A stretch of DNA of 64,000 nucleotides from Mycobacteroides chelonae CCUG 47445 (GTDB lineage Bacteria; Actinomycetota; Actinomycetes; Mycobacteriales; Mycobacteriaceae). Each line of letters opens with the position of its first letter. Position 1 is the stretch's first letter. The notes under the pieces are model-generated. The model was not told the origin of the DNA and searched no databases. It saw nothing but the letters and a program-made list of their open reading frames with translations. A program made the translations under genes and the position numbers. The stretch lies in the NCBI RefSeq assembly GCF_001632805.1, contig NZ_CP007220.1, forward strand, positions 4,526,001 through 4,590,000, read 5' to 3'. Positions 8,137 to 23,182 of this stretch are shown piece after piece.

Positions 8137-8664
8137 CTAGACCAGCGCGGGCACGGTGGCCAGCGCCTGGGCGACGCCCGAGACGATCGCCGCGATCTTG
8201 AGCGCCTCGAGAATCTGCTCGCGGGTCAATCCGGCCTCACGCAGCACCTTCTCGTGCGAGCCGACGCAGAAGTGACAGCCGTTGATGGTCGACACCGCGA
8301 AGGACCACAATTCGAACTCCGCCTTGTCGACGCCGGGATTACCGATGATGTTCATCCGCAGACCCGGGCGCAGGTCGTCATAGGCGCCGTCGAGGAAGCC
8401 CCGCCCGCGGTAGAACACGTTGGTCATCGCCATGATCGAGGCCGCGCCGAGTGCGGCATCCAGCGCCTCGGGCGACAGCACGGTGGCAGCCTCTTCGCGA
8501 ATCTCCTTGAACACCTGGTCGTTCCGGGTAGCCGCCGCTGTCGCGACGAGAGTGCCCCAAAGCTGGGCCGGCGACAGTACGGTGCCACGGGCGACCGTAC
8601 CCAGGTTGAGCTTGAGATCCTTGGCGTACTCGGGCAGCGCCTCTTTCAGGTTGTCAACACCCAT
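8137..8664 (-). CDS. ahpD: Alkyl hydroperoxide reductase AhpD
   Basis: A 175-residue AhpD of typical length. It carries the thioredoxin-like CHFC active-site pair and nearby His of the AhpD/carboxymuconolactone decarboxylase fold ([19 protein letters not shown]). In mycobacteria AhpD links AhpC to dihydrolipoamide-based electrons and completes the peroxidase cycle. It starts one base after the ahpC stop codon, so the two are co-transcribed and probably translationally coupled. Expression should follow the ahpC promoter, under OxyR. Confidence 0.96.
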
Positions 8665-8665
8665 G

Positions 8666-9253
8666 TCAGACGCCCGCGCTCATCAGCTCGCCCGCATCGA
8701 TCGTCGGGTCACCCTTGCGCCAGTTGCAGGCGCACAGCTCATCGGACTGCAGCGCGTCGAGCACGCGGAGCACCTCGTCGACGTTGCGGCCCACCGAACC
8801 CGCGGTGACGGAGACGAACTGAATGATGTTGTCGGGGTCGACGATGAAGGTGGCGCGGTCGGCCACACCATCGGAGTTCAGTACGCCGGACGCCTCGGCC
8901 AGCTCACGCTTGAGATCGCTGAGGATCGGGAACGGCAGGGTCTTGAGGTCCTCATGCTGTGCCCGCCACTGGAAGTGCACGAACTCGTTGTCCACCGACG
9001 CACCCAGCACCTGGGTGTCGCGATCGGCGAACTCGTCGTTCAGACGGCCAAAGGCAGCGATCTCGGTCGGGCACACGAAGGTGAAATCCTTCGGCCAGAA
9101 GAAGATCACACGCCACTTGCCGGGGTGGTCGTCGCTGGTGACGGTGGTGAAGTAGTCGTCAGGCTGCTGGGCGTTCACCTTCGACAGATCGCCGCCGATG
9201 ACCGCAGTCAGGTTGTAGGCCGGGAATTCATCGCCGATGGTCCGCAGAGTCAC
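8666..9253 (-). CDS. ahpC: Alkyl hydroperoxide reductase AhpC (peroxiredoxin)
   Basis: A 195-residue 2-Cys peroxiredoxin. The peroxidatic Cys lies in [10 protein letters not shown] and a resolving Cys pair near the C-terminus in LCACNWRKG, as in the mycobacterial AhpC subgroup. It reduces H2O2, organic peroxides and peroxynitrite, regenerated by AhpD. It is divergent from oxyR with under 100 bases between the starts, the classical arrangement. The upstream gap includes the CTATATTGATAG element. Confidence 0.96.
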
Positions 9254-9335
9254 GATTCTCCTTCACGTATTCGCTGAATGCTTACTGGCACCATCGTGCC
9301 GGAAATCTTTCAAAAACAAAACGTGATTGTTGGCA

Positions 9336-9347
9336 CTATATTGATAG
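9336..9347. promoter_or_regulatory. Possible OxyR-binding inverted repeat in the oxyR-ahpC gap
   Basis: CTAT-ATTG-ATAG is a short inverted repeat just before the oxyR start in an AT-rich part of the divergent promoter. The placement suits LysR-type autoregulation. The repeat is short and could be chance. Confidence 0.3.
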
Positions 9348-9349
9348 GT

Positions 9350-10288
9350 ATGTCCGATCGTAGTTATCAGCCGGCGCTGGTCGGCCTGCGTGCTTTCGTG
9401 GCTATCGCACGAAAGCGGCACTTCGGAAGCGCCGCCGCCGAGCTCGGCGTGAGTCAGCCCTCGCTGTCACAGGCCCTGTCCATGCTCGAAGAGGGGCTGG
9501 GTGTGCGGCTCGTCGAGCGCAACACCCGCAAGGTGCTGCTCACTCCGGAGGGCGAGGCGCTACTGGAGAAGGCCACCAGCGCGCTGGATGCGGTTGACGA
9601 ATTTACCTCGGCTGCAAGCGGGGTACGCGATCCGTTTGCGCAGACGCTGCGACTCGGCTTGATTCCCACGGTGGCCCCCTATGTGCTGCCCATGGTGCTC
9701 AGCGGACTGTCCCGTGAGTTCCCGGAGATGTCCTTGCGGGTCACCGAGGACCAGACCGGACGGCTGCTGCGATCCCTGGCCGATGGGTCCCTGGATGTGG
9801 CAGTCATGGCGCTGCCCGCGCAAACTCCCGGTATGGCGGAGATTCCCATGTACCGGGAAGATTTCGTTCTCGCCCTGCCGTCCGGACATCCGCTTGCCGG
9901 CAGCACGAAGGTCGAGCCCGCCGATCTAGCGGATATGCCGCTGTTGTTGCTGGACGAGGGACATTGCCTGCGCGATCAGGCTCTGGAGGTATGCCAACTC
10001 GCGGGCGTGCGGCCCGATCTCGGACACACCCGCGCGGCCTCGCTGGCCACCGCCGTGCAGTGTGTCGAGGGAGGCCTCGGCGTCACGCTCATCCCGGGCA
10101 CCGCCGTCACGGCCGAGACCGCCAGCGGCGGCCTGGCCACCGCCACCTTCGCGGCGCCGGTACCGGGTCGGCGGATCGGCTTGGTGTACCGCGCGATCAG
10201 CGGCCGGGACGACGCCTACCGACGGCTGGCCGAGCTGCTGACCCAACTTGTCGCGGCCGTGCACCCGGTCTTGGCCGAGGCCGTCTAA
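9350..10288 (+). CDS. oxyR: LysR-family peroxide sensor OxyR
   Basis: A 312-residue LysR-type regulator with an N-terminal winged HTH ([19 protein letters not shown]) and a C-terminal sensor domain. The redox cysteines are present as Cys206 and Cys215 in [12 protein letters not shown], the same 9-residue spacing as E. coli C199/C208. The frame is uninterrupted, whereas oxyR is inactivated in M. tuberculosis. It is divergent from ahpC, its known target. ATG at 9350 gives the family N-terminus. Its stop overlaps the stop of the convergent PEP-mutase-like gene by three bases. Confidence 0.93.
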
Positions 10289-11061
10289 CGCCAGCGGGCG
10301 AGGATTTCCTCTGCCCGGGCCGAGAGTGCGCGCTGCAGAAACGGCCCGAAACTGATCCGCCCGACGCCCAATGGACCAAACGAGGCCGGATCGTCCACAT
10401 CGGGCAGCGCGATCGCGTTCACCGGAAGCGGCAGCTCAGATGTCAAGCGTCGCTGCACATCCGGATCATGGCGGCCTACCGGGTACAGCGAGTCGGCACC
10501 CGCCTCGGCGGCGAGCGTGAGCCGCGCGATGGCCCGATCCACCCGGTCCGACTCGTCTCCGATTTGGCGAAGGAGAAGGTCAGTACGCGCATTGATAACC
10601 ACCGGCACGCCCGACTCATCGGCCGCAACCCGCAGTGCCCCAACAAGATCGGCATGTTCCTGCGGCTCACGAATCCGGCCGCCTTCGCTATGCACCGAGT
10701 CCTCGATGTTCAGACCGACCGCACCCGCCTCGATCAGTCCCTCAATGAGCCGCCGTGGCGTCTGCGCATAGCCGGACTCGATATCCACGGACACCGGCAG
10801 GTCCACCGCGGCGGTGATCTGCGAGACCCGCGCCACCACATCCTCAAACGACATGCCCTCCGCATCGGCCTTGCCCACCGAATCGGCGAGCGGATGCGAG
10901 CCCACCGTCAACGCCGCGAAACCGGCATCGGCGGCGAGCTTCGCGGACCACGCATCCCACACCGTCGGCAGGAAGACCGGGTCACCCGGCACATGAAGTG
11001 ACTTCAGTAGAGCGGCCTTGGCGGCGAGATCACCGGAGGTGTTGGTCATGCCTACATCCAA
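10285..11061 (-). CDS. Isocitrate lyase/PEP mutase superfamily protein
   Basis: A 258-residue TIM-barrel protein of the isocitrate lyase/phosphoenolpyruvate mutase superfamily, which make or break C-C or P-C bonds next to a carboxylate. Visible family features are the nucleotide/Mg region [17 protein letters not shown] and VVINARTD. The active-site loop Cys (KKCGH) of true isocitrate lyases is not seen, so oxaloacetate decarboxylase- or hydrolase-type chemistry is equally possible. It is last in a four-gene operon led by two Asp/Glu racemase-like genes and a GntR regulator, 17 bases after the regulator. The start could also be the ATG at 11049. Confidence 0.83.
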
Positions 11062-11078
11062 CCCCGTCCCGCGCGGAT

Positions 11079-11771
11079 TTACTCCACCGATGCACCCGCA
11101 GAGCCGCGGCGCGCCATGAGGCGCGCGACCGCATCGTGCATGTGCTCCTCGATCAATCGATACGCAGCAGGTGCATCACCGGCGCCGATCGCCGCGCACA
11201 GGACCTCATGCTCACGGACTTGTTCCGTCAGGTCGGGGTAGGCGCCCTGCAGTTCTCCCAGCAGCATCCGGGTCTCCAGCAGCAGGGTGCGCATGGCGCG
11301 GCGCAGCCGGGGGCTTCCCGAGGAGTCCACCAGCACCTCGTGAAAGTCCTGATCGGCGTCGGTCACCGCGACGATGTCGCCGCGGACGGCTGCTTCGGTC
11401 ATCACCGCCACCGGCACGAGTAGCCGCCGGTAGGCGGTGACGGTGTCGCCGGACATGATGCATTCCAACGCCGCTCGTTCGATGGCCGCCCGCGACCGGT
11501 AGACATCATGGACGTCTTCATCGGTCAGCTCGATGACGAAGATGCCGCGGTTGCGCTCGCTGCGCAGCAGACCCTCCGATACCAGGCGCTGCATGGCTTC
11601 GCGTAGTGGTCCACGGGAGACCGCGAACTGCGCGGCCAATGACGCCTCCCCCAGCTGGGCTCCGGGCGCCAGCACACCGCGCATGATCGCGATGCGCAAC
11701 CGCTCGGCGATCAGTTCCGCGGTGGATTGGCGCTCCAGCGGCGCGAACTCCTCAGGTACCAGCGTCGTCAT
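11079..11771 (-). CDS. GntR-family (FCD subgroup) regulator of the catabolic cluster
   Basis: A 230-residue regulator with an N-terminal winged HTH (LGEASLAAQFAVSRGPLREAMQRL) and a C-terminal helical FCD ligand domain. The domain's metal-ligand residues are visible (Asp in DADQDFHEVLV, His in REHEVL, and His in EEHMHDAV). FCD regulators typically bind organic acids and act as substrate-released repressors. The gene overlaps the upstream racemase-like gene by 20 bases and lies within the operon it probably controls. The operator is likely GATTGTTGACAATC, found at both divergent promoters of the cluster. Confidence 0.9.
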   Translation of the reverse strand: MTTLVPEEFAPLERQSTAELIAERLRIAIMRGVLAPGAQLGEASLAAQFAVSRGPLREAMQRLVSEGLLRSERNRGIFVIELTDEDVHDVYRSRAAIERAALECIMSGDTVTAYRRLLVPVAVMTEAAVRGDIVAVTDADQDFHEVLVDSSGSPRLRRAMRTLLLETRMLLGELQGAYPDLTEQVREHEVLCAAIGAGDAPAAYRLIEEHMHDAVARLMARRGSAGASVE

Positions 11772-12516
11772 GTCGTCTCCTGAAAAGCCGCCCTAGGCCG
11801 AAGACCGGCACCTCCGGGACTGGATGTCGCCGGCCCTGCGGCTCCGTGATTAATCGCAAACCTTCCCACACCGTCACCTGGTTGGCGGTCAATACCACCT
11901 TGTCCAGCCGAGATTCGAGCCGCTCGACGTGCGCGACGGTGTGCATGGCGGTGTCGGGAATCAACAGCGCCTCGGCGTCTGGATGGTCGTGGGCATCTGC
12001 CAGCTCGTCGACCTGGCTCGCGGTAAGCCTGCCCACCTCTGCCGCCGTGTCGATGCCCGCCTCACCCATCGACACGACCTGAATATCGTGCGCGGCCAGA
12101 AATGCGACGAACAGCTCGGCGATATCGCGCGGGTAGCTCGCAGCCACCGCCACTTTCGAGATTCCGAGCGCTACGGCGGCGTTGACGAAGGCGAAGGAGG
12201 TGCTCGACGCCGGAGTACCACTGGATTCGGACAGGAGCGCCACTTGATTCGCCGCGCCCTGCGGACCGTAGACAAAGCTGCCCGAGGTGCACGCCCACAC
12301 CACAGCACTCGGTTCATGAGGGCGCAGCAGTCGAGCACCCTCGGCGAGCTTCTCCGGACTGCCCAGATCGAGCAGTTCGGGCACCGCATGCAGATCGGTG
12401 CCGTAGATGTGCACGACGGGGAAGTTCATGTCCAGCTGGCGCGCCACCAGGGGGTAGTCCGACTCGGCCGCGTGATCGGGGTAGATGAATCCCACCGTCG
12501 GACGCGTATTACTCAC
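11752..12516 (-). CDS. Asp/Glu racemase superfamily protein (maleate isomerase-like, one Cys)
   Basis: A 254-residue protein of the Asp/Glu/hydantoin racemase superfamily, in the branch of maleate cis-trans isomerase and arylmalonate decarboxylase. The first catalytic Cys is present in WACTSGSF. The second is replaced: the aligned segment reads IPDTAMHT, with Asp where its neighbour has Cys. A strong GGAGG just before the GTG at 12516 sets this start, which overlaps the preceding gene by GTGAGTAA. A one-Cys enzyme should not use the two-base racemase mechanism, so a decarboxylase or altered isomerase is possible. Confidence 0.82.
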   Translation of the reverse strand: MSNTRPTVGFIYPDHAAESDYPLVARQLDMNFPVVHIYGTDLHAVPELLDLGSPEKLAEGARLLRPHEPSAVVWACTSGSFVYGPQGAANQVALLSESSGTPASSTSFAFVNAAVALGISKVAVAASYPRDIAELFVAFLAAHDIQVVSMGEAGIDTAAEVGRLTASQVDELADAHDHPDAEALLIPDTAMHTVAHVERLESRLDKVVLTANQVTVWEGLRLITEPQGRRHPVPEVPVFGLGRLFRRRHDDAGT

Positions 12517-13276
12517 TCGAACCTCCTCCGAAGACATCGCGGAGCCACTTACCGGGCCCCATCATGGGAAGACTCATCCGGTCCAGACAGGCCCAGATGG
12601 TCAGTTGGTTAGCCGTCAATACCGGCTTACCGAGTAGCCGTTCCAGCGGCTCGATCACGTCATAGGTGCGCAGGTTGGTACAGCTGACAAAGATCGCTTC
12701 GGCATCATCGGTGTCGGCAGCGAGAATCCGCTCGGCGACAGTGCGGTAGTTGACCTTCCAGATGCCCCCGCCCAGGCCCAGATGATCTGTCCGCACCACC
12801 GTTACACCCAACTCCCCCAGGAACTTCGCGAGCAGCTCGGTCAGCTCGGCGTCGTAGGGAGTGATGACGCTGATCCGGCCGATACCCAAGGCGGTCACGG
12901 CCTCCGCCAGCGCGCCCGAGGTGGTGACGGCAGACTTGGCGCCGGTCGCCATGATGGCCTCAACCAGCGACCGCTCGTGTTCGACACCGCGAATGAAGCT
13001 GCCCGAAGTACACAGATATGCAACGACTTCCGGCTCGACGTGCAGGACGTCGCGGGTGGCCGCCTGCAGGTGAGCGGTATTGGAGACCAACTCGGCCATG
13101 GCCCTGCTCACCGGTACCGGCTCATAGGGAGTACGGGCCAGATGCAGTGACACCTCGGCCGGAACCCAGCGCCACAGCTCACGTTCCAGCGCAAGGTCGA
13201 AAGGCGCAATGATGCCGATGCCACGCTGATCAGCCGACTCCGAGAAATCGGGAAGAGACGAGAAATCCACCGGCAA
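12509..13276 (-). CDS. Asp/Glu racemase superfamily protein (maleate isomerase-like, two Cys)
   Basis: A 255-residue member of the Asp/Glu racemase superfamily with both catalytic cysteines, in LCTSGSFIRG and SCTNLRTYD. It most resembles maleate cis-trans isomerases, which convert maleate to fumarate through a Cys-succinyl adduct. It is the first gene of the minus-strand operon that continues with a paralogue lacking the second Cys, the GntR regulator and the PEP-mutase-like gene. The 14-bp palindrome lies 45 bases upstream of the start. The real substrate is unknown. Confidence 0.83.
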   Translation of the reverse strand: MPVDFSSLPDFSESADQRGIGIIAPFDLALERELWRWVPAEVSLHLARTPYEPVPVSRAMAELVSNTAHLQAATRDVLHVEPEVVAYLCTSGSFIRGVEHERSLVEAIMATGAKSAVTTSGALAEAVTALGIGRISVITPYDAELTELLAKFLGELGVTVVRTDHLGLGGGIWKVNYRTVAERILAADTDDAEAIFVSCTNLRTYDVIEPLERLLGKPVLTANQLTIWACLDRMSLPMMGPGKWLRDVFGGGSSE

Positions 13277-13321
13277 GACCTAACACTCGCAGCATCGCTC
13301 CGCGCTCCGAGCGATCACTCA

Positions 13322-13335
13322 GATTGTTGACAATC
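13322..13335. promoter_or_regulatory. GntR-type operator, copy 1
   Basis: GATTGT-TG-ACAATC is a perfect palindrome between the divergent racemase-like and D-2-hydroxyacid dehydrogenase genes. An identical 14-mer occurs at 17494. The TTGTNNACAA core is typical of GntR/FCD operators. Confidence 0.75.
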
Positions 13336-13361
13336 ATACGATATCTCCATACCGTGTCAAC

Positions 13362-14327
13362 GTGAGCGCGCGCCCGATTGTCGCGGATGAGCAGCTTGCG
13401 CGAAGACCAGTGGTGGCCGTGCAGCACTCACCTAGTTCGGTACCGGACCGACTCGACCCCGTGGCCGCGTCCGCCGAGGTACGACTGGTGGAATCGGACC
13501 AACTCGCCACGGTGCTGCCCGGAGCCGAGATCCTCTTCGTCTACGACTTTCGTTCCTCGGCGCTGCGCGAAACATGGTCCGCCGCAGATTCATTGCGCTG
13601 GGTACAGATCGCGGCCACGGGTGCCGATCCGGTGCTGTTCGATGAACTCGTCGAGAGCGACGTGGTACTCACCAACTCTCGCGGTCTGTTCGAGCGCCCC
13701 ATCGCCGAGTACGTGCTGGCGCAGATCCTGGCCTTCGCCAAGGATATTCGCCGTTCCACACGCGCCCAGGCCGCGCTGAGCTGGCGCCATTTCGAATCAG
13801 AATCCATCGAAGGTGTGCCCGTAGCGGTACTCGGTACCGGACCGATCGGCCAGGCCATCGCCGCCCTACTGGACGCGGTGGGCATGCGAGTCACCGTTCT
13901 CGGCAGAACCGAATCCGCCGAGTTGTCTTCCCATGTCGCCGATGTCGAGTATCTGGTGCTCGCTGCTCCGCTTACCGCGCGCACGCACGGGATTGTCAAC
14001 GCGCGCGTGCTCTCGGCGATGCCAACGACAGCCCGGCTGATCAATGTGGGCCGCGGCGAACTGGTGGGCACGTGGGATCTGGTATCCGCGCTGAATCAGG
14101 GAGCCATTGCCGGGGCCGCATTGGATGTCACCGATCCCGAGCCGCTGCCGGTGGGACATCCTTTGTGGCGCACGCCGAATACGTACATCACCCCGCATAA
14201 CAGTGGCGATGTACACGGATGGACCGACCGTCTTCAGGACCAGTTTGTCGCCAACTTCGACCGCTATCTGCGAGGCGAGGAACTTCTGAATATCGTCGAC
14301 AAGGACAGGATGCGCCGCAATGCATGA
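13362..14327 (+). CDS. D-isomer-specific 2-hydroxyacid dehydrogenase
   Basis: A 321-residue NAD(P)-dependent dehydrogenase of the hydroxypyruvate/glyoxylate reductase type. The Rossmann motif is VAVLGTGPIGQAIA; the substrate/catalytic Arg and Glu regions are INVGRGELV and LDVTDPEPL; the catalytic His lies in YITPHNSGD. It would interconvert a 2-oxoacid and a D-2-hydroxyacid. The GTG start lies 26 bases after the GntR-type palindrome. Its stop overlaps the amidase start by 8 bases (ATGCATGA), so the two are one operon. Confidence 0.88.
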   Translation: MSARPIVADEQLARRPVVAVQHSPSSVPDRLDPVAASAEVRLVESDQLATVLPGAEILFVYDFRSSALRETWSAADSLRWVQIAATGADPVLFDELVESDVVLTNSRGLFERPIAEYVLAQILAFAKDIRRSTRAQAALSWRHFESESIEGVPVAVLGTGPIGQAIAALLDAVGMRVTVLGRTESAELSSHVADVEYLVLAAPLTARTHGIVNARVLSAMPTTARLINVGRGELVGTWDLVSALNQGAIAGAALDVTDPEPLPVGHPLWRTPNTYITPHNSGDVHGWTDRLQDQFVANFDRYLRGEELLNIVDKDRMRRNA

Positions 14328-15711
14328 ACCCACCGATCCCACCGAGATGACCGCGCTGGAGCTGGTGGCCGCGTACACCTCAGGTGAACTGTCTCCGGTG
14401 GAGGCGACAGCCGCGGTGTTGTCCAAAATCGCCCAAACCGACAGCGCCATCAATGCTTACTGCCTCGTCGACGAGGAAGCCGCCCTGGCAGCAGCCACAC
14501 AATCCGAGGAGCGATGGCACGGCCACTACACCCGCGGACTACTCGACGGGGTCCCGATCTCCATCAAGGACGTCTTCCTGACCCAGAACTGGCCGACTCT
14601 GCGGGGCTCGGGCCTGGTCGATCCGGCCGGCCCGTGGGAGGCAGATAGCCCCGCTGTACATCGCATCCGGGCCGACGGCATGGTCATGGTCGGCAAGACC
14701 ACCACGCCCGAGCTGGCTTGGAAGGGGGTTACCGATAGCCGTCAGCGCGGAATCACCCATAACCCGGCCGACCCGCGCCGCACGGCAGGCGGGTCTTCCG
14801 GCGGCAGCGCGGCTGCGGTGGCCGCCGGCATGGGCCCGATGTCCATCGGCACCGACGGTGGAGGCAGCATCCGGATACCCGCCAGCTTCTGCGGCGTAGT
14901 CGGTTTCAAACCCACGCACGGCCGGGTCCCGATGTACCCGATCAGCCCCTTCGGGCCGCTGGCACACGGTGGCCCGATAACTCGCACGGTGGAAGACGCT
15001 GCGCTGCTGATGGACATCATCAGCCTGCCGGACCATCGCGATCCCACCTCGCAGCCGCCCACCCTCACCACCTACCGCTCGCAGGTCTACCGGGATATGA
15101 CCGGCCTGGATATCGCCTACTCACCCACGCTCGGCTACGTCGACGTCGATTCCGAGGTCGCCGAGCTGGTCGAAAACGCGGTGAACGCCCTTGACGAGGC
15201 CGGGCTGCCCGTGACCCACGCAGATCCGGGATTCTCCGATCCCATCGATGCCTTCGAAATCCTATGGGCTGCAGGGGCGGCCGCTAGCCTCAACAACTAT
15301 GGCAGTCTCAGCGAGGTACGCGACGGAATAGATCCGGGGCTTGCCCAGATGTGGGACATCGGCCTCGGCGCCTCCGCCACCGAATATCTGGGAGCACGGA
15401 ACGCCTGTGTACAACTGGGCGCCATCATGGGTGCATTCCACGAGATCCACAACGTGCTCATTACCCCGACCGTGCCGATCCCCGCGTTCCCGTTGGGTGC
15501 CGACGTCCCGCCGAACTCAGGGATGCGCTGGTGGGCACAGTGGACGCCATTCACATACCCGTTCAACATGACTCAGCAGCCAGCCCTGTCAATTCCGGTA
15601 GGCAGAACCTCGACGGGGCTGCCGGTCGGCATGCAGATCATCGGCCCGCGCCACAGCGACGACCTGGTGCTAGCGGTCGGCCATTTCGCCGAGCGGGTGC
15701 TGGCGGGTTAG
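14320..15711 (+). CDS. Amidase-signature family hydrolase
   Basis: A 463-residue amidase of normal length. The Ser-cisSer-Lys triad is complete: Lys in ISIKDVF, the Gly/Ser-rich AGGSSGGSAAAVAAG and the nucleophile region GTDGGGSIRIPAS. Members hydrolyse amides to acid and ammonia, so it could open or deaminate the unknown substrate of the cluster. It is coupled to the D-2-hydroxyacid dehydrogenase by overlapping codons and converges on the DUF3830 gene eight bases away. No signal peptide is present. Confidence 0.92.
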   Translation: MHEPTDPTEMTALELVAAYTSGELSPVEATAAVLSKIAQTDSAINAYCLVDEEAALAAATQSEERWHGHYTRGLLDGVPISIKDVFLTQNWPTLRGSGLVDPAGPWEADSPAVHRIRADGMVMVGKTTTPELAWKGVTDSRQRGITHNPADPRRTAGGSSGGSAAAVAAGMGPMSIGTDGGGSIRIPASFCGVVGFKPTHGRVPMYPISPFGPLAHGGPITRTVEDAALLMDIISLPDHRDPTSQPPTLTTYRSQVYRDMTGLDIAYSPTLGYVDVDSEVAELVENAVNALDEAGLPVTHADPGFSDPIDAFEILWAAGAAASLNNYGSLSEVRDGIDPGLAQMWDIGLGASATEYLGARNACVQLGAIMGAFHEIHNVLITPTVPIPAFPLGADVPPNSGMRWWAQWTPFTYPFNMTQQPALSIPVGRTSTGLPVGMQIIGPRHSDDLVLAVGHFAERVLAG

Positions 15712-15718
15712 TCCCTGA

Positions 15719-16213
15719 CTAGGCCCGCGCGAAAGCCAACTGCTCGCCCTGAACGCCGGTGAGCCACAGATCCTGGCAGGCGGCCGCGATGTCGGCCAGA
15801 CCCTCTTCGATGGTCGCGAAGACATTCCCGGGCACCCATCCGGCATCCCCGTTGATCAGCAGATTGTTCCGGCCATAGAAGATCGCCAGATCGGTGGCGC
15901 CCTGCGCCGAATGCGCTTCCGACCCCGGCTCGTATCCGTAGGCAGGGTTACCGATCTCCCATGGCTCGAACCCGAAGAAGCACACATCCCCGGGGATCGG
16001 GGTAATGGTTGGGTTCTCCCGGCCGGGCGCCGGCAGCAATGGCGGCAACAGGGTGTACACCTCGTTGCGCGCATATTTTGCGTGGTATGCCTGCCCCACG
16101 ACCGGTAGTGAGTTCCACACCGTTTCACAAGTTCTCGGTGCCTCAGCGTCGAGCAGCCGGGCGCGGCAGGTGACGCCCCGTTTGGTCAGCGTGATGGATA
16201 TGTAGCGATCCAT
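15719..16213 (-). CDS. DUF3830 family protein (cyclophilin-like fold)
   Basis: A 164-residue protein resembling DUF3830, a family with a cyclophilin-like fold and no assigned reaction. Recognisable parts are the ETVWNSLPVVGQAYHAKYA region and CFFGFEPWEIGNPAYGYEPG. ATG at 16213 shares its A with the stop of the upstream aminotransferase (TGATG), so the pair is translationally coupled. Members often occur beside amidase and racemase-like genes in catabolic clusters, as here, which suggests a role in binding or processing the same substrate. Function is unknown. Confidence 0.8.
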   Translation of the reverse strand: MDRYISITLTKRGVTCRARLLDAEAPRTCETVWNSLPVVGQAYHAKYARNEVYTLLPPLLPAPGRENPTITPIPGDVCFFGFEPWEIGNPAYGYEPGSEAHSAQGATDLAIFYGRNNLLINGDAGWVPGNVFATIEEGLADIAAACQDLWLTGVQGEQLAFARA

Positions 16214-17457
16214 CACAGCTCCGCCAACACGGTGCTCCAGATGCCCAGGGCATCGGATATCTGATCGGCCGTCACTACCAATGGTGGAATCATCCGCACC
16301 ACATTCATATGTGGACCGCACATCAGCAGGAGCAGCCCCTTCTCGGCCGCTAATGCCTGGGCCCGGGCGGCGAGCTGGGCCGCAGGTCGGCCGTCCGCAC
16401 TGAACTCCACACCTACCATCAACCCCAGGCCACGCACATCGCCATCAATCCCTCTCTCGGCAGCGATCTTTCGCGCACCGTCGAGAAGCTCCCGGCCCCG
16501 CGCCCGAGCGTTCTCGACGAGCCGTTCCTCGTCGATCACGTCGAGGGTCGCAAGCGCAGCCGCACAGGCAACGGCATTGGCGCCATAGGTGCCGCCCTGT
16601 GAACCGGGCCAGGCACGCCCCATCAGCTCGGCAGAGGCCGCGATACCTGAGATGGGGAATCCGCTGGCGATTCCCTTGGCCATCACCAGGATGTCTGGCG
16701 TCACGCCAAAGTGCTGGTGGCCGAAATACTCTCCGGTGCGGCCGAATCCGGTCTGCACCTCGTCAACCACCAGCAGGATGCCGTGCTGGTGAGCGCGTTC
16801 GGCGACGCCGTTGAGGAACTCGGTGTTGGCGGGGATGTAACCGCCCTCTCCCAACACCGGTTCGATGACCAGCGCTGCCACCTGATTGGGTGCCGTCGCG
16901 GTGGCGAGCAGGTAGTCCAGCTCTTGCAGCGCGAACCGGGTGGCCTCGGTCTCGCTCCAGCCATACCGATACGCCGTCGGGAAAGGAGCCGTGTACACGC
17001 CGGCCATCAAGGGGCCGATTCCCGATGAGAATCGTGGCCCCGAGGTGGTCATGGTGGCCGCGGCCAGGGTACGTCCGTGAAATCCACCTTGGAACACAAC
17101 GATGTTCGGGCGGCCGGTGGCCTGCCGCGCCAACCGCACGGAGGCCTCGATGGCCTCACTACCGGAGTTGGCGAAGAACAACGAATCCAGATCCGCAGGC
17201 AACACATCACCAAGACGGCGCACCAGGTTCTGCAATGGTCGATGCATCACCGTGGTGTACTGCCCGTGAATGAGCGTGGCCACCTGCCGTTGCGCGGCCT
17301 CGACCACACGAGGATGGCAGTGACCCGTACTCACGACACCGATACCCGCAGTGAAATCCAGGTATTCACGGTCACTTTCGTCATACAGATAGCAACCCTG
17401 GCCTCGCACCGCCACCACCGAGGTGGCCTGCTTGAGCACGGGCGATAACGCAGTCAC
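16213..17457 (-). CDS. Class III PLP-dependent aminotransferase
   Basis: A 414-residue aminotransferase of the acetylornithine/GABA/beta-alanine group. The PLP-binding features are ANSGSEAIEASVRLAR, the Asp of LLVVDEVQTGFGR and the Schiff-base Lys of VMAKGIASGFP. It would move an amino group from an omega-amino acid to a 2-oxoacid, giving a semialdehyde for the neighbouring dehydrogenase. GTG at 17457 is preferred: GGAAGGG lies just upstream, and a longer reading would run through the operator at 17494. It is divergent from the aldehyde dehydrogenase gene. Confidence 0.9.
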   Translation of the reverse strand: MTALSPVLKQATSVVAVRGQGCYLYDESDREYLDFTAGIGVVSTGHCHPRVVEAAQRQVATLIHGQYTTVMHRPLQNLVRRLGDVLPADLDSLFFANSGSEAIEASVRLARQATGRPNIVVFQGGFHGRTLAAATMTTSGPRFSSGIGPLMAGVYTAPFPTAYRYGWSETEATRFALQELDYLLATATAPNQVAALVIEPVLGEGGYIPANTEFLNGVAERAHQHGILLVVDEVQTGFGRTGEYFGHQHFGVTPDILVMAKGIASGFPISGIAASAELMGRAWPGSQGGTYGANAVACAAALATLDVIDEERLVENARARGRELLDGARKIAAERGIDGDVRGLGLMVGVEFSADGRPAAQLAARAQALAAEKGLLLLMCGPHMNVVRMIPPLVVTADQISDALGIWSTVLAEL

Positions 17458-17493
17458 GGCATCCCTTCCACTGACATACTCAGAACTATTGTC

Positions 17494-17507
17494 GATTGTT
17501 GACAATC
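17494..17507. promoter_or_regulatory. GntR-type operator, copy 2
   Basis: An exact second copy of GATTGTTGACAATC, centred between the divergent aminotransferase and aldehyde dehydrogenase genes, 16 bases before the latter's start codon. Confidence 0.75.
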
Positions 17508-17523
17508 TCCCTAGCATGGTGGC

Positions 17524-18984
17524 ATGCATCCAGGCGCAGTGTCTACCCCCCTGTCCACCGAAAGCGCGGTGGTCGCCGCCGCGCTCTCCCAGCAGCTCCG
17601 CCACGGTCCTACCTTCCCCGTCGTGGACCCCGCGACCGAAGAGGTGCTGGCCGATGTCGCCAACATGGACGGCCGCGCCGCACTCACCGCGTTGAGTAAT
17701 GCGGTTGCCGTCCAACGCTCCTGGGCCTCGACCTCGCCGCAGCAGCGCGCCGACATACTGATGCGTGCCTACACGCTGATGATCGAGAGCACCGAAGACC
17801 TGGCCCTGCTCATGACCCTGGAGATGGGCAAGCCCCTCACCGAGTCACGCGGCGAGGTCACCTACGCGGCAGAGTTCTTCCGTTGGTTTGCCGGCGAAGC
17901 GGTACGCCAGGACGGAGGCGTGATGCTGGCACCCGACGGCGGATCACGGTTGATCGTGACCCACCGCCCGGTGGGCCCCTGCCTGCTGATCACGCCGTGG
18001 AACTTCCCGCTGGCCATGGGCACCCGAAAGATCGGCCCCGCATTGGCCGCGGGCTGCACCTGTCTGGTCAAACCGGCCGAACAGACGCCACTGTCGATGC
18101 TCGCCCTACTCGGCATCCTGCGCGAAGCCGGAGTTCCCGACGGGGTGGTATCGGTGATCACCACCGCCGACCCCGGACCGACCATGGCACCCCTGCTTGC
18201 CGACCCCCGAGTGCGCAAGCTCTCCTTCACCGGATCCACCGAAGTGGGCCGCTACCTGCTCACGCAGTGCGCACCTACCGTCAAACGCACCTCGATGGAG
18301 TTGGGCGGAAACGCACCGTTCATCGTGTTCGACGACGCCGATCCCGAAGAGGCCGCCGCCGGCGCACTGATCGCCAAGATGCGCAACATCGGCCAAGCCT
18401 GTACCGCTGCCAACAGGATCTACGTGCAGCGCAGTGTCGCCGGAGCGTTCACCGAGGCGCTCACCGCAAAGCTCGGCGCACTGCATATGGGACGCGGTAC
18501 CCAACCCGGTGTCGATGTCGGCCCACTGATCGACCCAGACGCCGTGGCCAAGGCCGACCGGCTGGTCACGGACGCTCGGAAGCGTGGTGCCACAGTGCAA
18601 TTGGGTGGCGAGATACCTGACGGTGCCGGATACTTCTACCCTCCTTCCCTGCTGACCGACGTGCCCGATGACAGCGACATGATGCGAACCGAAATCTTTG
18701 CCCCGGTGGCCGCCATAGCGAGCTTCGACACCGAGGAGGAAGTGATAGCCCGTGCCAATGACTCCGAATTCGGTTTGGTGGCATACCTATACACCAATGA
18801 TGCCCGGCGCGGATGGCGGGTTTCCGAGCAATTGGAGACCGGCATGGTGGGCCTGAACCGGCCCGTGGTGTCCACCCCCGCCGCTCCCTTCGGCGGCGTC
18901 AAACAATCCGGGATCGGCCGTGAAGGGGGCTTCGCGGGAATCGAGGAGTTCCTGGAGACCAAGTACATCGGCGCGGCCGTATGA
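17524..18984 (+). CDS. NAD(P)-dependent aldehyde (succinate-semialdehyde-type) dehydrogenase
   Basis: A 486-residue aldehyde dehydrogenase close to GabD-type succinate-semialdehyde dehydrogenases. Catalytic Glu is in SMELGGNAP and catalytic Cys in NIGQACTAANR. Other conserved parts are ITPWNFPLAMGTRK, FTGSTEVGR and the C-terminal PFGGVKQSGIGREGG. Paired with a divergent class III aminotransferase, it would oxidise the semialdehyde product to the acid. The start lies 17 bases after the palindrome. The stop overlaps the next gene (ATGA). Confidence 0.93.
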   Translation: MHPGAVSTPLSTESAVVAAALSQQLRHGPTFPVVDPATEEVLADVANMDGRAALTALSNAVAVQRSWASTSPQQRADILMRAYTLMIESTEDLALLMTLEMGKPLTESRGEVTYAAEFFRWFAGEAVRQDGGVMLAPDGGSRLIVTHRPVGPCLLITPWNFPLAMGTRKIGPALAAGCTCLVKPAEQTPLSMLALLGILREAGVPDGVVSVITTADPGPTMAPLLADPRVRKLSFTGSTEVGRYLLTQCAPTVKRTSMELGGNAPFIVFDDADPEEAAAGALIAKMRNIGQACTAANRIYVQRSVAGAFTEALTAKLGALHMGRGTQPGVDVGPLIDPDAVAKADRLVTDARKRGATVQLGGEIPDGAGYFYPPSLLTDVPDDSDMMRTEIFAPVAAIASFDTEEEVIARANDSEFGLVAYLYTNDARRGWRVSEQLETGMVGLNRPVVSTPAAPFGGVKQSGIGREGGFAGIEEFLETKYIGAAV

Positions 18985-20033
18985 ACGCCCGGATGAACGT
19001 GGCGACCATTCCGGGTGACGGGATCGGCGTCGACGTGACCAGGGAGGCCGTCAAGGTGATGGACGCCGCCACCGGCGGCCGCATCGAATGGACCGAATTC
19101 GACTACTCCTGCCAGAGATACGCCAACACCGGCGCCATGATGCCCGCCGACGCACCCGCGACGCTGGCCGGATTCGACGCGATTCTGCTTGGCGCCGTGG
19201 GGTATCCGGGCGTACCCGATGACGTCTCGCTATGGGGACTGCTCATCCCGCTGCGGCGCGCCTTCAACCAGTACGTGAACCTGCGACCCGTACGCCTGCT
19301 GCCCGGTATCGCCTCGCCCCTGGCCGGAGTATCTGCCGACGCACTCTCTATGGTCATCGTGCGCGAGAACACCGAAGGTGAATACTCGCCGATCGGCGGC
19401 ATTCACAACCGCGGCAACCAAAACGAATTCGCCCTACAGGAATCGGTTTTCACACGCATCGGGTGCGAACGCATCATCCGGTACGCATTCGAGCTGGCCG
19501 CGTCTGCCGGATTCCGCGTCTGCTCGGCCACGAAATCCAACGGCATCATCCATTCAATGCCTTACTGGGACAGCATCTTCAACATGGCGGCGGCCGAGTA
19601 TCCACAGGTTCCGTCCGTGTCGATGCATGTCGACGCTCTTGCCGCCCGGATGATCAGCGATCCCGGCAGCCTGGACGTCATCGTTGCCTCCAACCTCTTC
19701 GGCGACATCCTCTCCGACTTGGCGGCGGCGGTTACCGGAGGCCTGGGACTGGCGGCATCCGGAAACATCAACCCAGAACGGACCGCCATCTCCATGTTCG
19801 AATCGGTGCACGGTTCGGCACCCGACATAGCCGGCCAGGGCATCGCCAACCCCATCGCACAAATACTGGCCGGCGCCATGCTTCTCGACCATCTGAACGA
19901 GCCTGACGCGGCCAACAAGATTCGTCTCGCCGTCGACCAGGTACTGGAGGAGGGTCGCGTTCGTACGCCCGATCTCGGAGGTAGCGACACCACCGAGCAG
20001 CTCGGCACAGCAATCGCCGAAACCGCTCGGTGA
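18981..20033 (+). CDS. Tartrate/D-malate dehydrogenase-like (isopropylmalate dehydrogenase family)
   Basis: A 350-residue NAD-dependent beta-decarboxylating dehydrogenase of the isocitrate/isopropylmalate family. Key parts are the N-terminal IPGDGIGVDVTREA, IVRENTEGEYS, TKSNGI and the metal-binding NLFGDILSDLAAAV. The closest group is tartrate/D-malate dehydrogenase, which oxidises D-malate to pyruvate and CO2. It overlaps the aldehyde dehydrogenase stop by ATGA and ends the plus-strand unit. If a D-malate-like intermediate arises in the cluster, this would feed it to pyruvate; that is inference. Confidence 0.88.
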   Translation: MNARMNVATIPGDGIGVDVTREAVKVMDAATGGRIEWTEFDYSCQRYANTGAMMPADAPATLAGFDAILLGAVGYPGVPDDVSLWGLLIPLRRAFNQYVNLRPVRLLPGIASPLAGVSADALSMVIVRENTEGEYSPIGGIHNRGNQNEFALQESVFTRIGCERIIRYAFELAASAGFRVCSATKSNGIIHSMPYWDSIFNMAAAEYPQVPSVSMHVDALAARMISDPGSLDVIVASNLFGDILSDLAAAVTGGLGLAASGNINPERTAISMFESVHGSAPDIAGQGIANPIAQILAGAMLLDHLNEPDAANKIRLAVDQVLEEGRVRTPDLGGSDTTEQLGTAIAETAR

Positions 20034-20143: not shown

Positions 20144-20416
20144 ATGTCGACGAAGACGGAGCTCACCGAGCTCAACCAAGCACTTGGCAGCCTGCGCCGC
20201 TGTGTCCACTCTCTGCAGTCTCGTTATGGCGACCTGCCGGCCGTGCGCCGCATCGTCAACGACGTAGAGCGGCTGGATATCGACGCCGCCGATCTGGACC
20301 TCTCGCCTCATGAGCACCGGCTCGCGAGCAACGAGAAGATCCAAATCCCCGACACCGAATACGACCGGGAGTTCTGGGGCGATATCGACGACGAAGGAGT
20401 TGGTGGCTACAGATGA
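20144..20416 (+). CDS. Conserved hypothetical protein, first gene of sdh1 operon (Rv0250c-like)
   Basis: A 90-residue acidic soluble protein in the position of M. tuberculosis Rv0250c, directly before the succinate dehydrogenase 1 genes. The N-terminal half looks helical (TELTELNQALGSLRRCVHSL); the C-terminus is acidic (EFWGDIDDEG). AAGGAG lies 5 bases before the ATG. The stop overlaps the next start (ATGA). A role in assembly or regulation of the complex is possible but unproven. Confidence 0.85.
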   Translation: MSTKTELTELNQALGSLRRCVHSLQSRYGDLPAVRRIVNDVERLDIDAADLDLSPHEHRLASNEKIQIPDTEYDREFWGDIDDEGVGGYR

Positions 20417-21222
20417 GCCAAGCCACCGGGGTCTTCTCGCCTTCGCGTGCCCAGATTCAGCAGCGCACGCTACGCACTGACAAGTGGTGGCTCGCACCAT
20501 TACTCACCAACCTCGGGCTGGCGACATTCGTCATCTATGCCACTGTGCGCGCTTTCTGGGGCAGCGCGTACTGGGTGCCGCAGTATCACTATCTGACGCC
20601 GTTCTATTCACCATGCGTCAGCACTGCCTGCGCCCCCGGGGCCAGCCATTTCGGGCATTGGGTCGGTGATCTGCCGTGGTTCATTCCCATGGCCTTCATC
20701 TCGCTGCCGTTTCTGCTCGCCTTCCGGCTGACCTGCTATTACTACCGCAAGGCCTACTACCGCTCGGTCTGGCAGTCGCCGACCGCCTGCGCGGTGGCCG
20801 AGCCGCACGCGAAGTACTCCGGCGAGACCAAGCTGCCACTGATCATGCAGAACATTCACCGGTACTTCTTTTACGCCGCGGCGATCATCTCGATCGTCAA
20901 CACCTACGACGCCATCGTCGCCTTCCATTCGGAAAAGACCGGCGGCTTCGGATTCGGCCTGGGCAACGTGATCTTGGTGACCAACGTGGTTCTGCTGTGG
21001 GTGTACACGCTGTCCTGCCACTCCTGCCGGCACGTCACCGGCGGGCGGCTCAAGCACTTCTCCAAACACCCTGTCCGGTATTGGATCTGGACACAGGTCA
21101 GCAAGCTCAACACCAGGCACATGCTGTTCGCCTGGATCACGCTGGGCACACTGATCCTCACCGACCTGTACGTCATGCTGGTCGCCAGCGGCACCATTTC
21201 CGACCTGAGATTCGTTGGTTAG
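20413..21222 (+). CDS. Succinate dehydrogenase 1 membrane anchor subunit (Rv0249c-like)
   Basis: A 269-residue polytopic membrane protein expected to anchor the Sdh1 flavoprotein and iron-sulfur subunits and to carry quinone and heme sites. Five or so hydrophobic helices are visible, starting near residues 28, 85, 150, 185 and 235. Several His residues (for example FGHWVGDLP, HRYFFYAAA, SCHSCRHVTGG) are candidate heme ligands. Length matches the single-chain cytochrome b-type anchor of mycobacterial Sdh1. It is followed by the flavoprotein gene after 45 bases. Confidence 0.87.
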   Translation: MSQATGVFSPSRAQIQQRTLRTDKWWLAPLLTNLGLATFVIYATVRAFWGSAYWVPQYHYLTPFYSPCVSTACAPGASHFGHWVGDLPWFIPMAFISLPFLLAFRLTCYYYRKAYYRSVWQSPTACAVAEPHAKYSGETKLPLIMQNIHRYFFYAAAIISIVNTYDAIVAFHSEKTGGFGFGLGNVILVTNVVLLWVYTLSCHSCRHVTGGRLKHFSKHPVRYWIWTQVSKLNTRHMLFAWITLGTLILTDLYVMLVASGTISDLRFVG

Positions 21223-21267
21223 CAATTAAATTCATATTCATACTCGCAAACAAACTGGGGTTAATTA

Positions 21268-23181
21268 ATGGCTGAACTCGAACGGCACCAATACGACGTA
21301 GTCGTGATCGGTGCCGGTGGCGCCGGACTGCGCGCCGTCATCGAGGCACGTGAACAGGGCTTTAAGGTCGCGGTTGTCTGTAAATCCCTGTTCGGCAAGG
21401 CACACACCGTGATGGCCGAAGGCGGTTGCGCCGCCTCAATGGGTAACGCCAACGACAAGGACAGCTGGCAGGTGCACTTCGGTGACACCATGCGCGGCGG
21501 CAAGTTCCTGAATAACTGGCGGATGGCCGAGTTGCACGCCAAGGAGGCCCCGGACCGGGTCTGGGAACTGGAAACCTATGGCGCGTTGTTCGATCGCACC
21601 AAGGATGGCCGGATCAGCCAGCGCAACTTCGGCGGCCACACCTATCCGCGGCTGGCGCACGTGGGTGATCGCACCGGCCTGGAGATCATCCGCACCATGC
21701 AGCAGAAAATCGTCTCGCTACAGCAGGAAGACTTTGCCGAAACCGGTGATTACGAGGCACGTATCAAGATCTTCGCCGAGTGCACCATCACGGATCTGCT
21801 CCTGGACGGGGACCGGATCGCCGGTGGGTTCGGATACTGGCGCGAATCGGGCCGGTTCATCCTCTTCGAGGCTCCCGCAGTGGTTTTGGCCACGGGCGGC
21901 ATTGGCAAGTCGTTCAAGGTGTCGTCGAACTCCTGGGAGTACACCGGTGACGGGCACGCCCTGGCGCTGCGCGCCGGCGGCACGCTGATCAACATGGAGT
22001 TCATCCAGTTCCATCCGACCGGCATGGTCTGGCCACCCTCGGTCAAGGGCATCCTGGTCACCGAAGGTGTGCGCGGCGACGGCGGAGTGCTCAAGAACTC
22101 CGAGGGTAAGCGATTCATGTTCGACTACATCCCCGCGGTGTTCAAGGGTCAATACGCCGAGACCGAGGAAGAAGCCGACCAATGGCTCAAGGACAACGAC
22201 TCGGCACGGCGCACCCCCGACCTGCTGCCCCGTGACGAGGTCGCCCGGGCCATCAACTCCGAAGTCAAGGCCGGTCGCGGCACCCCGCACGGCGGCGTGT
22301 ACCTGGACATCGCTTCACGCATCCCCACCGAGGAGATCAAGAGGCGGCTGCCGTCGATGTACCACCAGTTCAAGGAACTCGCCGAGGTCGACATCACCAA
22401 GGACGACATGGAAGTCGGTCCGACCTGTCACTACGTGATGGGCGGTATCGAGGTCGATCCCGACAGTGGAGCCGCGACGGTGCCCGGTCTCTTCGCGGCC
22501 GGTGAATGCTCCGGCGGCATGCACGGGTCAAACCGGTTGGGCGGCAACTCCCTTTCCGACCTGCTCGTGTTCGGGCGGCGCGCCGGCCTGGGTGCCGCCG
22601 AGTACGTCAAGGGCCTCACGTCTCGTCCGCAGATCTCCGAGGCCGACGTCGACAAGGCCGCCGTACTCGCTTTGGCACCCTTCGGAGACCCCGCTGCCGA
22701 GGGTGCCGAAAATCCGTACACACTGCACACCGACTTGCAGCAGGCCATGAACGACCTGGTCGGCATCATCCGCAAGGAAGAGGAAGTCGAACAGGCCCTG
22801 GTCAAGCTGAACGAGCTCAAGGAGCGCTTCAAACACGTTGCCGTGGAAGGGCACCGGCAGTTCAATCCGGGCTGGCACCTGGCCATCGACATGCGCAATA
22901 TGCTGCTGGTCAGTGAGTGCGTGGCCAAGGCGGCGCTGCTGCGCACCGAGAGCCGAGGCGGGCACACCCGCGATGACCATCCGGACATGGATGCCACCTG
23001 GCGCAAGACCCTACTGGTGTGCAGCACCACCGGCGGAGATCCGGCGGTACCCGATGTACTCGTCACGCCCGAGCCGCAGCTCCCCTTGCGCCCAGATCTT
23101 TTGGAACTGTTCGAGATCGGCGAGCTGGAGAAGTACTTCACGCCCGAAGAACTGGCAGAGCACCCAGGAAGGAAGTCCTGA
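21268..23181 (+). CDS. sdhA: Succinate dehydrogenase 1 flavoprotein subunit
   Basis: A 637-residue FAD-containing catalytic subunit that oxidises succinate to fumarate at the inner face of the membrane. The N-terminal FAD motif is VVVIGAGGAGLRAVIEA. The covalent-flavin His region is KAHTVMAEGGCAAS. The substrate region HPTGMVWPPSVKGILVTEGV and the GSNRLGGNSLSDLLVFGRR motif follow. The C-terminal capping domain has GHTRDDHPDMD. It matches Rv0248c in position and length. The Fe-S subunit starts one base after its stop. Confidence 0.95.
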   Translation: MAELERHQYDVVVIGAGGAGLRAVIEAREQGFKVAVVCKSLFGKAHTVMAEGGCAASMGNANDKDSWQVHFGDTMRGGKFLNNWRMAELHAKEAPDRVWELETYGALFDRTKDGRISQRNFGGHTYPRLAHVGDRTGLEIIRTMQQKIVSLQQEDFAETGDYEARIKIFAECTITDLLLDGDRIAGGFGYWRESGRFILFEAPAVVLATGGIGKSFKVSSNSWEYTGDGHALALRAGGTLINMEFIQFHPTGMVWPPSVKGILVTEGVRGDGGVLKNSEGKRFMFDYIPAVFKGQYAETEEEADQWLKDNDSARRTPDLLPRDEVARAINSEVKAGRGTPHGGVYLDIASRIPTEEIKRRLPSMYHQFKELAEVDITKDDMEVGPTCHYVMGGIEVDPDSGAATVPGLFAAGECSGGMHGSNRLGGNSLSDLLVFGRRAGLGAAEYVKGLTSRPQISEADVDKAAVLALAPFGDPAAEGAENPYTLHTDLQQAMNDLVGIIRKEEEVEQALVKLNELKERFKHVAVEGHRQFNPGWHLAIDMRNMLLVSECVAKAALLRTESRGGHTRDDHPDMDATWRKTLLVCSTTGGDPAVPDVLVTPEPQLPLRPDLLELFEIGELEKYFTPEELAEHPGRKS

Positions 23182-23182
23182 C

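Follow-up and report, generated by a model that had tools for sequence, protein, structure and literature searches.

The stretch analysed here (the window) comprises 64,000 nucleotides of Mycobacteroides chelonae CCUG 47445 (NZ_CP007220.1, positions 4,526,001 to 4,590,000), and it carries a cluster of catabolic genes for which we propose a role in the breakdown of ectoine-type compounds. The ten open reading frames (ORFs) that the original prediction had placed at 10285..20033 are all present, and their family assignments hold, each scoring above its Pfam cut-off (PEP_mutase, GntR plus FCD, Amdase twice, 2-Hacid_dh, Amidase, DUF3830, Aminotran_3, Aldedh and Iso_dh). They form four transcription units instead of the two divergent units first proposed: MI1-MI2-GntR-PEPM and AT3-DUF3830 on the minus strand, and HADH-amidase and ALDH-TDH on the plus strand. 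Adjacent ORFs inside the units share between 1 and 29 bases, with the exception of GntR and PEPM, which are separated by a 17-base gap. The DUF3830 gene has an ATG at 16213, overlapping the AT3 stop, and AT3 likely starts at the GTG at 17457, with GGAAGG upstream. The features are the following:

10285..11061, minus strand: PEPM, ICL/PEP-mutase superfamily, 258 aa (PF13714, 220.5 bits)
11079..11771, minus strand: GntR/FCD regulator, 230 aa, presumed to control the regulon (PF00392 and PF07729)
11752..12537, minus strand: MI2, AMDase/EutA-like (PF17645, 76.3 bits)
12509..13276, minus strand: MI1, EutA/maleate-isomerase-like (PF17645, 88.9 bits)
13322..13335, no strand: putative operator A, GATTGTTGACAATC, an exact palindrome between MI1 and HADH
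13362..14327, plus strand: HADH, D-2-hydroxyacid dehydrogenase, 321 aa (PF02826, 145.1 bits)
14320..15711, plus strand: amidase, AS family, PRK06169 group (NCBIfam PRK06169, 721.9 bits, cut-off 506)
15719..16213, minus strand: DUF3830 protein, cyclophilin-like fold (PF12903, above gathering score)
16213..17457, minus strand: AT3, class III aminotransferase (PF00202, 397.8 bits)
17494..17507, no strand: putative operator B, GATTGTTGACAATC, an exact palindrome between AT3 and ALDH
17524..18984, plus strand: ALDH, succinate-semialdehyde dehydrogenase type (PF00171, 513 bits)
18981..20033, plus strand: TDH, tartrate/D-malate-type oxidative-decarboxylating dehydrogenase, accessory (PF00180, 296.1 bits; TIGR02089, 460.3 bits)

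A single operator shared by all the genes had been predicted; instead, two identical copies of a 14-bp palindrome, GATTGTTGACAATC, were found at 13322-13335 and 17494-17507, one in each of two divergent promoter regions. Searching the whole genome (5,029,817 bases) for the pattern GATTGTNNACAATC gave exactly two sites, both in this cluster, whereas base composition would lead one to expect about 0.06 sites genome-wide, and the reversed control pattern gave 0 occurrences. Allowing one mismatch added five sites elsewhere in the genome among the matches listed. With two mismatches, the four matches of the window were not beyond chance (shuffle mean of 1.49, with four reached in 7 of 100 shuffles), and therefore weight was placed on the exact sites only.

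Named bacterial and archaeal genomes were scanned with a DUF3830 alignment; of the 561 places confirmed, the best 80 were kept as loci, and gene presence in them was counted by tblastn. Besides DUF3830 itself (the query, 80 loci), this revealed AT3 in 78, ALDH in 72, GntR in 65, MI2 in 64, MI1 and HADH in 63 each, TDH in 61, the amidase in 60, and PEPM in only 3, all of these being lower bounds because some loci end at contig ends (64 of the 80 span at least 20 kb). The DUF3830-aminotransferase pair, whose search in other genomes had been suggested, is thus conserved in 78 of the 80 loci. GntR, MI1, MI2, HADH, amidase, DUF3830, AT3, and ALDH were all found together in 53 loci, and TDH too in 48 of them. 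At 60% identity or more, PEPM was limited to Mycobacteroides franklinii, Mycobacterium sp. D16Q13, and Mycobacteroides sp. LB1 (L013-L015). Judging from these counts, the conserved set is one of nine genes and PEPM is a local addition, so that of the ten-gene regulon originally proposed nine members stand and PEPM does not. The translations of the flanking ORFs suggest ahpD, ahpC, and an oxyR-type LysR regulator (window 8137-10288), as well as a succinate dehydrogenase/fumarate reductase-like operon (20413-23929), and flanks with matching ORF lengths appear again in L013-L015.

Four further loci from one genus, probably Streptomyces (L127, L129, L132, and L133), contain MI1, MI2, HADH, amidase, and DUF3830, with neither AT3 nor ALDH in the 19.5 kb read; an IclR-type gene was present in L129, the one locus of the four examined for it. 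As these five genes occur there with no AT3 or ALDH nearby, their gene content suggests that they do the substrate-specific part of the pathway. Other ORFs were also seen near the cluster. Families of a flavin adenine dinucleotide (FAD)-linked oxidase (26 of the 80 loci) and a thiamine pyrophosphate (TPP) enzyme (24 of the 80) were found, in many cases following DUF3830 (e.g., L016:10595-13533, Amycolatopsis-type); these two counts come not from tblastn but from ORFs picked by a GC3 heuristic, by which some were mislabelled. Both are possible later enzymes of the same pathway and were left out of the regulon, as no strict operator site lay at either. In Nocardia sp. CDC159 (L048:14883-17873), DUF3830 and the amidase are separated by genes for a hydantoinase-A-like protein and an NCS1-type permease, and other neighbour genes in L015, L037, L048, L053, L055, L061, and L086 gave no consistent signal.

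The operator was conserved as well. Promoter regions were compared only if both flanking genes were found, divergent, and within 900 bases of each other, and the core TTGTNNACAA was present in all 63 MI1/HADH regions and all 71 AT3/ALDH regions that qualified. Across the 1.54 Mb of the 80 loci there are 170 sites with this core, 134 of which fall within the 30 kb of compared promoter regions. Under a stricter definition, 167 of 167 sites were located near the 5' ends of cluster genes, from 200 bases inside to 700 bases before them, the nearest gene being HADH or MI1 for 64, AT3 or ALDH for 79, and MI2 for 24. The latter group corresponds to a third operator position between MI1 and MI2: in 23 of the 24 cases, the site follows the MI1 match at a distance of 13-56 bases from its end; in the remaining one (L046), MI1 is off the locus and the site lies before MI2. 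This third copy was found mostly in Amycolatopsis loci and is absent from the window. As for the regulator, residues D140, H144, H188, and H210 were invariant in 81 of 81 loci compared (the loci in this and the other residue counts include two duplicates, L131 = L024 and L134 = L075), a D-x3-H, H, H arrangement typical of metal-binding FCD domains. In one locus (L138), GntR is present and an operator could not be recognised; in another (L144), the operator is present and GntR was not found in the stretch read. The GntR protein would be the presumptive ligand of the palindrome, and the proposal of a single regulon appears well supported by the presence of the operator at both promoter regions across genera and by genes that travel together.

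Analysis of the individual enzymes gave EutA (TIGR02990) as the best NCBIfam family of both MI1 and MI2, at 109.4 and 87.4 bits, both below the cut-off of 318. MI1 is 31% identical to the EutA of Ensifer canadensis (L203) and, like it, has both catalytic Cys, a feature of all 83 loci compared. In the 86 loci compared for MI2, site 1 is occupied by Cys in 82 and by Ser in the other 4, and site 2 is always Asp. Within the AMDase/maleate isomerase superfamily, two catalytic Cys presumably indicate an isomerase or racemase and a single Cys at site 2 a decarboxylase, and the site residues of MI2 in these 86 loci fit neither pattern; its active-site pattern is nearer to the AMDase form in 3ixl than to the two-Cys maleate isomerases. 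Plasmid relatives of MI1 (4 of 548 records read) lie in diverse clusters (oxoprolinase, UbiD, and one Ehu-annotated) and were set aside as too distant to help. HADH retains the Arg, Glu, and His that we assume to be catalytic in 83 of 83 loci, and the amidase retains Lys83, Ser160, and Ser183, presumably the positions of its Lys/Ser/Ser triad, in 80 of 80. The best solved relatives of AT3 are 4-aminobutyrate aminotransferases, those found for ALDH are mostly succinate-semialdehyde dehydrogenases, and TDH scored just below the TIGR02089 cut-off of 470.4.

Ectoine and 5-hydroxyectoine are salt-stress protectants, cyclic amidines made from aspartate-derived 2,4-diaminobutyrate, and genes for their synthesis or uptake were found next to the cluster in several relatives. 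In a genome of the same genus (G022, locus L145), ectB (652 bits, cut-off 552.2) and ectD (434.6 bits, cut-off 336.5) immediately precede DUF3830 in the same orientation, the gap from ectD to DUF3830 being 22 bp. The GntR gene of an MI1-MI2-GntR unit is followed after 35 bp by the start of ectD (413.2 bits) in Rhodococcus tibetensis (L067). EhuB, the ectoine/hydroxyectoine binding protein, scored above the cut-off (190.9 bits) in L127 (259.1), L129 (277.1), L132 (269.9), L133 (261.8), L191 (267.4), and L047 (211.3). In four genomes its gene lies 180-248 bp from DUF3830, with no other EhuB found in any of them, and in L191 the operator is directly upstream of it; in the phylum, 20 of 227 genomes have EhuB over the cut-off, one copy each.

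Further genes possibly linked to ectoine use lie near operator sites in some loci. In L126, an operator precedes an M24 gene most similar to ectoine hydrolase (416.5 bits, below the cut-off of 613), an aminotransferase, and an M20 deacylase, and M24 genes lie downstream of operators in both L126 and L146, with DUF3830 present in both. A replacement of the amidase by this M24/M20 module was considered and rejected, since G068 (L191) and G033 (L146) also keep the amidase and the module is therefore an addition. A ProP-type gene of the major facilitator superfamily (MFS) was detected in 7 of 124 loci, below the ProP cut-off where scored; in L191 and L193 it is preceded by an operator or near-operator. 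A relative with 57% identity is found directly after ectD in the genome of the window itself (L194). In addition, there is an MFS gene in L135 and a betaine/carnitine/choline transporter (BCCT) gene in L136-L138, close to operator sites in L135-L137.

Because the genomic context of the relatives carries ectoine genes, the substrate is probably ectoine/5-hydroxyectoine. The pantothenate, pyridine/maleamate, and pyrimidine pathways, first thought of from the enzyme names, were dropped because the neighbour genes of the relatives pointed to ectoine. The maleamate-like substrate guessed at originally thus gives way to ectoine/5-hydroxyectoine, and the alternative guess, an amino-acid-derived one, was right only in the loose sense that ectoine is made from an aspartate-derived precursor.

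The distribution of ectoine genes over the phylum points in the same direction. The host genome encodes EctD (374.8 bits), EctC (183.6 bits), and an EctB-like protein in one run (L194), and lacks a recognisable EutD/DoeA, the ectoine hydrolase (highest score 61.5 bits, with the cut-off at 613). DUF3830 was detected in 43 of 396 phylum genomes, 19 with the long cluster type (above 180 bits, a division of our own) and 24 with the short type only, and EctD was over its cut-off in 30 of the 396. Cluster-type DUF3830 was present in 13 of the 30 genomes with EctD vs. 6 of the 366 without it; conversely, EctD was present in 13 of the 19 long-type genomes vs. 17 of the 377 others (Fisher p = 3e-12, genomes taken as independent) and over cut-off in none of the 24 that have the short type alone. 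The same relation was seen among the 37 genomes of the genus, with DUF3830 in 6 of 12 genomes with EctD vs. 0 of 25 without it (p = 4e-4). EctC was over its cut-off in 42 genomes, of which the 40 above 90 bits were kept and 2 weak ones dropped. EctD occurs in 30 of these 40, and the cluster was found in 13 of those 30 vs. 0 of the 10 without EctD (p = 0.016), a restriction that favours a role in hydroxyectoine use. EutD/DoeA, found at E 1e-60 in 13 of the 396 genomes (6 of them over cut-off), showed the opposite trend within the EctC set, occurring in 4 of the 10 genomes without EctD (only G250 over cut-off) vs. 1 of the 30 with it (p = 0.01), and among the 19 cluster genomes an EutD-like protein at this threshold was found in G068 only. 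In G154, G165, and G250, an EutD-like gene lies within 3 kb of EhuB, possibly an EutD-based ectoine cluster in the same phylum.

Our results make it likely that the locus is a substrate-inducible regulon for the catabolism of 5-hydroxyectoine, and of ectoine too, either directly or after hydroxylation by EctD, under a local GntR/FCD repressor that would bind GATTGTTGACAATC. This interpretation is supported by gene content, by conservation of the operator and of catalytic residues, by the ectoine genes that adjoin the cluster in part of the relatives, and by co-occurrence with EctD. The repressor would act at the two divergent promoter regions and, by its position, on its own operon. The cyclic amidine would be opened, most likely by DUF3830, to N-acetyl (hydroxy)-2,4-diaminobutyrate, from which the amidase, a candidate deacetylase of this compound, would take off the acetyl group. 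The EutA-like MI1 and MI2 may fix the configuration of the hydroxylated intermediate, AT3 would transaminate the terminal amine to give an aspartate-semialdehyde-type compound, and ALDH would oxidise the latter to (3-hydroxy)aspartate. HADH, and TDH where present, would work at the hydroxy/oxo-acid stage (e.g., from tartrate-type acids to glycerate). The logic of amide hydrolysis, isomerisation, transamination, and oxidation set out in the original prediction looks well supported in general terms.

The assignment of ring opening to DUF3830 derives from its predicted structure, as the model of this protein resembles Pictet-Spenglerases, with KslB and McbB as fold neighbours at 16-22% identity, a likeness at the level of the fold. 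KslB and McbB presumably act on ring C-N bonds, and this resemblance makes DUF3830 a candidate ring-opening enzyme; we consider this assignment close to an even call, the activity lying otherwise with the amidase or another enzyme. A member from Arthrobacter with the cyclophilin-like fold (PDB 3kop) was deposited as an uncharacterised protein, for which a role is proposed here. No paper naming DUF3830 was found in the open-access literature searched, which is not proof of its absence in print. Other branches of the family were also seen (L148-L165 and L093). A short subfamily has a different motif (HVRWSGE...) and occurs in other families, and a distant member in Azospirillum (27% identity) lies beside a dihydropyrimidinase, with DapA and an amino-acid ABC permease in the vicinity; neither context was used for the substrate assignment. 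The archaeal control Haloferax volcanii matched the DUF3830 search and, below cut-off, the EutD search, so DUF3830 and an EutD-like protein may be linked in haloarchaea as well.

Several observations weigh against the proposed hydroxyectoine regulon. The EutA, ProP, M24, and tartrate-dehydrogenase assignments are all below curated cut-offs, and AT3 is only 29% identical, over most of its length, to Atf of the canonical ectoine cluster. Of 124 loci, only L145 and L067 have EctD next to cluster genes, and EctD is absent from 6 of the 19 cluster genomes of the phylum sample (G068, G124, G155, G219, G325, and G260) and from G040 of the relatives sample, which has the cluster; cluster-type DUF3830 is in turn absent from 17 of the 30 genomes with EctD. 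Only half of the cluster genomes (12 of 24) have EhuB over its cut-off, and in 6 of these 12 it lies away from the cluster stretches read; EhuB also occurs in some genomes with no cluster, and it was not found in the host genome at E 1e-30. The four Streptomyces-type loci have neither a GntR homologue nor an operator in the stretch read. Finally, the Fisher tests ignore phylogeny, and several two-way splits were examined.

Three other explanations were considered. Ectoine and hydroxyectoine could be degraded alike, with the ring opened by the amidase or by a hydrolase encoded elsewhere and DUF3830 as an auxiliary protein, which we regard as plausible though short of probable. The amidase stands alongside DUF3830 in all four Streptomyces-type loci, and enzymes of its family hydrolyse C-N bonds; moreover, L126 and L146 hold both operator-linked M24 genes and DUF3830, so the latter need not be the hydrolase there. 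However, it is DUF3830 itself that follows ectD by 22 bp in L145, its fold neighbours KslB and McbB act on ring C-N bonds, and the restriction of the cluster to EctC genomes that also have EctD (13 of 30 vs. 0 of 10) points to a role in hydroxyectoine use. We put forward tentatively, and with some doubt, that Actinomycetota possess an EutD-independent, hydroxyectoine-first route in which EctD first hydroxylates ectoine, DUF3830 is a new ring-opening hydrolase with a fold related to Pictet-Spenglerases, and hydroxy-diaminobutyrate and 3-hydroxyaspartate follow, while ectoine-only producers tend to keep EutD.

It is unlikely that the substrate is another compatible solute or a cyclic amino acid, imported by Ehu-, ProP-, or BCCT-type transporters, with the EctD link reflecting shared salt-adapted lifestyles. 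ProP and BCCT transporters are broad, EctD is missing from 6 of the 19 cluster genomes, and the distant short DUF3830 of Azospirillum lies beside a dihydropyrimidinase; against this stand the sole EhuB of four genomes, over an equivalog cut-off and 180-248 bp from DUF3830, the ectD and ectBCD genes adjoining the cluster in L067 and L145, respectively, and the co-occurrence with EctD inside the genus. Catabolism of maleamate/pyridine-type compounds or amides, which two AMDase/maleate-isomerase-like proteins and an amidase might suggest, is highly improbable, given that MI1 and MI2 both score best against EutA among NCBIfam families, that MI2 has no second catalytic Cys in any of 86 loci, and that no pyridine-pathway genes were seen among the annotated neighbours, a selected part of all neighbours.

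Returning to the hydroxyectoine regulon, M. chelonae encodes EctD and neither a recognisable EutD nor EhuB, and therefore the regulon probably recycles the organism's own hydroxyectoine; uptake by the ProP-type carrier is a possibility. If the proposal is right, it would provide a previously unassigned route by which many actinobacteria (Nocardia, Amycolatopsis, Rhodococcus, mycobacteria, and probably Streptomyces) recycle or consume hydroxyectoine, it would give a substrate to cluster-type DUF3830 and to the nine-gene set, and it would open the chemistry of hydroxyectoine breakdown to direct study with a few purified proteins.

Compared with the proteobacterial cluster (ehu/ueh-eutABCDE-asnC-ssd-atf with enuR; doeABCDX), the locus shares a class III aminotransferase, a succinate-semialdehyde dehydrogenase-type enzyme, EutA-like proteins, a GntR-superfamily regulator, and, in some relatives, Ehu transporters. 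Over most of its length, ALDH shares 49% identity with the Ssd protein encoded in the Ensifer canadensis ectoine cluster. In contrast, the locus carries DUF3830, the PRK06169 amidase, the D-2-hydroxyacid dehydrogenase, and a second, divergent EutA-like protein, and the regulator is a GntR/FCD protein with its own operator and no aminotransferase-like domain, instead of the MocR-type EnuR. A BLASTP comparison of the ten proteins with the Ensifer cluster gave no match to DoeA, to the deacetylase DoeB/EutE (DoeB negative at E 1e-3), to the EutB dehydratase, to EutC, or to EnuR, and no transporter is encoded among the ten genes.

A 2018 review restricts ectoine consumers to Proteobacteria (PMC5924519), and a 2026 paper describes provisional Gram-positive ectoine clusters found by EutD and EutB similarity (PMC13188858). 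The main text of the latter contains no mention of Mycobacter-, Nocardi-, Streptomyces, or Brevibacteri-, and no description of such an EutD-less cluster was found in the open-access literature searched. The clusters of PMC13188858 resemble ours in the proposed ectoine catabolism by Actinomycetota, in their MFS, BCCT, or Ehu transporters, and in an aldehyde dehydrogenase, and differ in that they were found through EutD and EutB, neither of which occurs in the cluster of the window. In conclusion, the cluster probably represents, without the known ectoine hydrolase, a new variant of ectoine catabolism.

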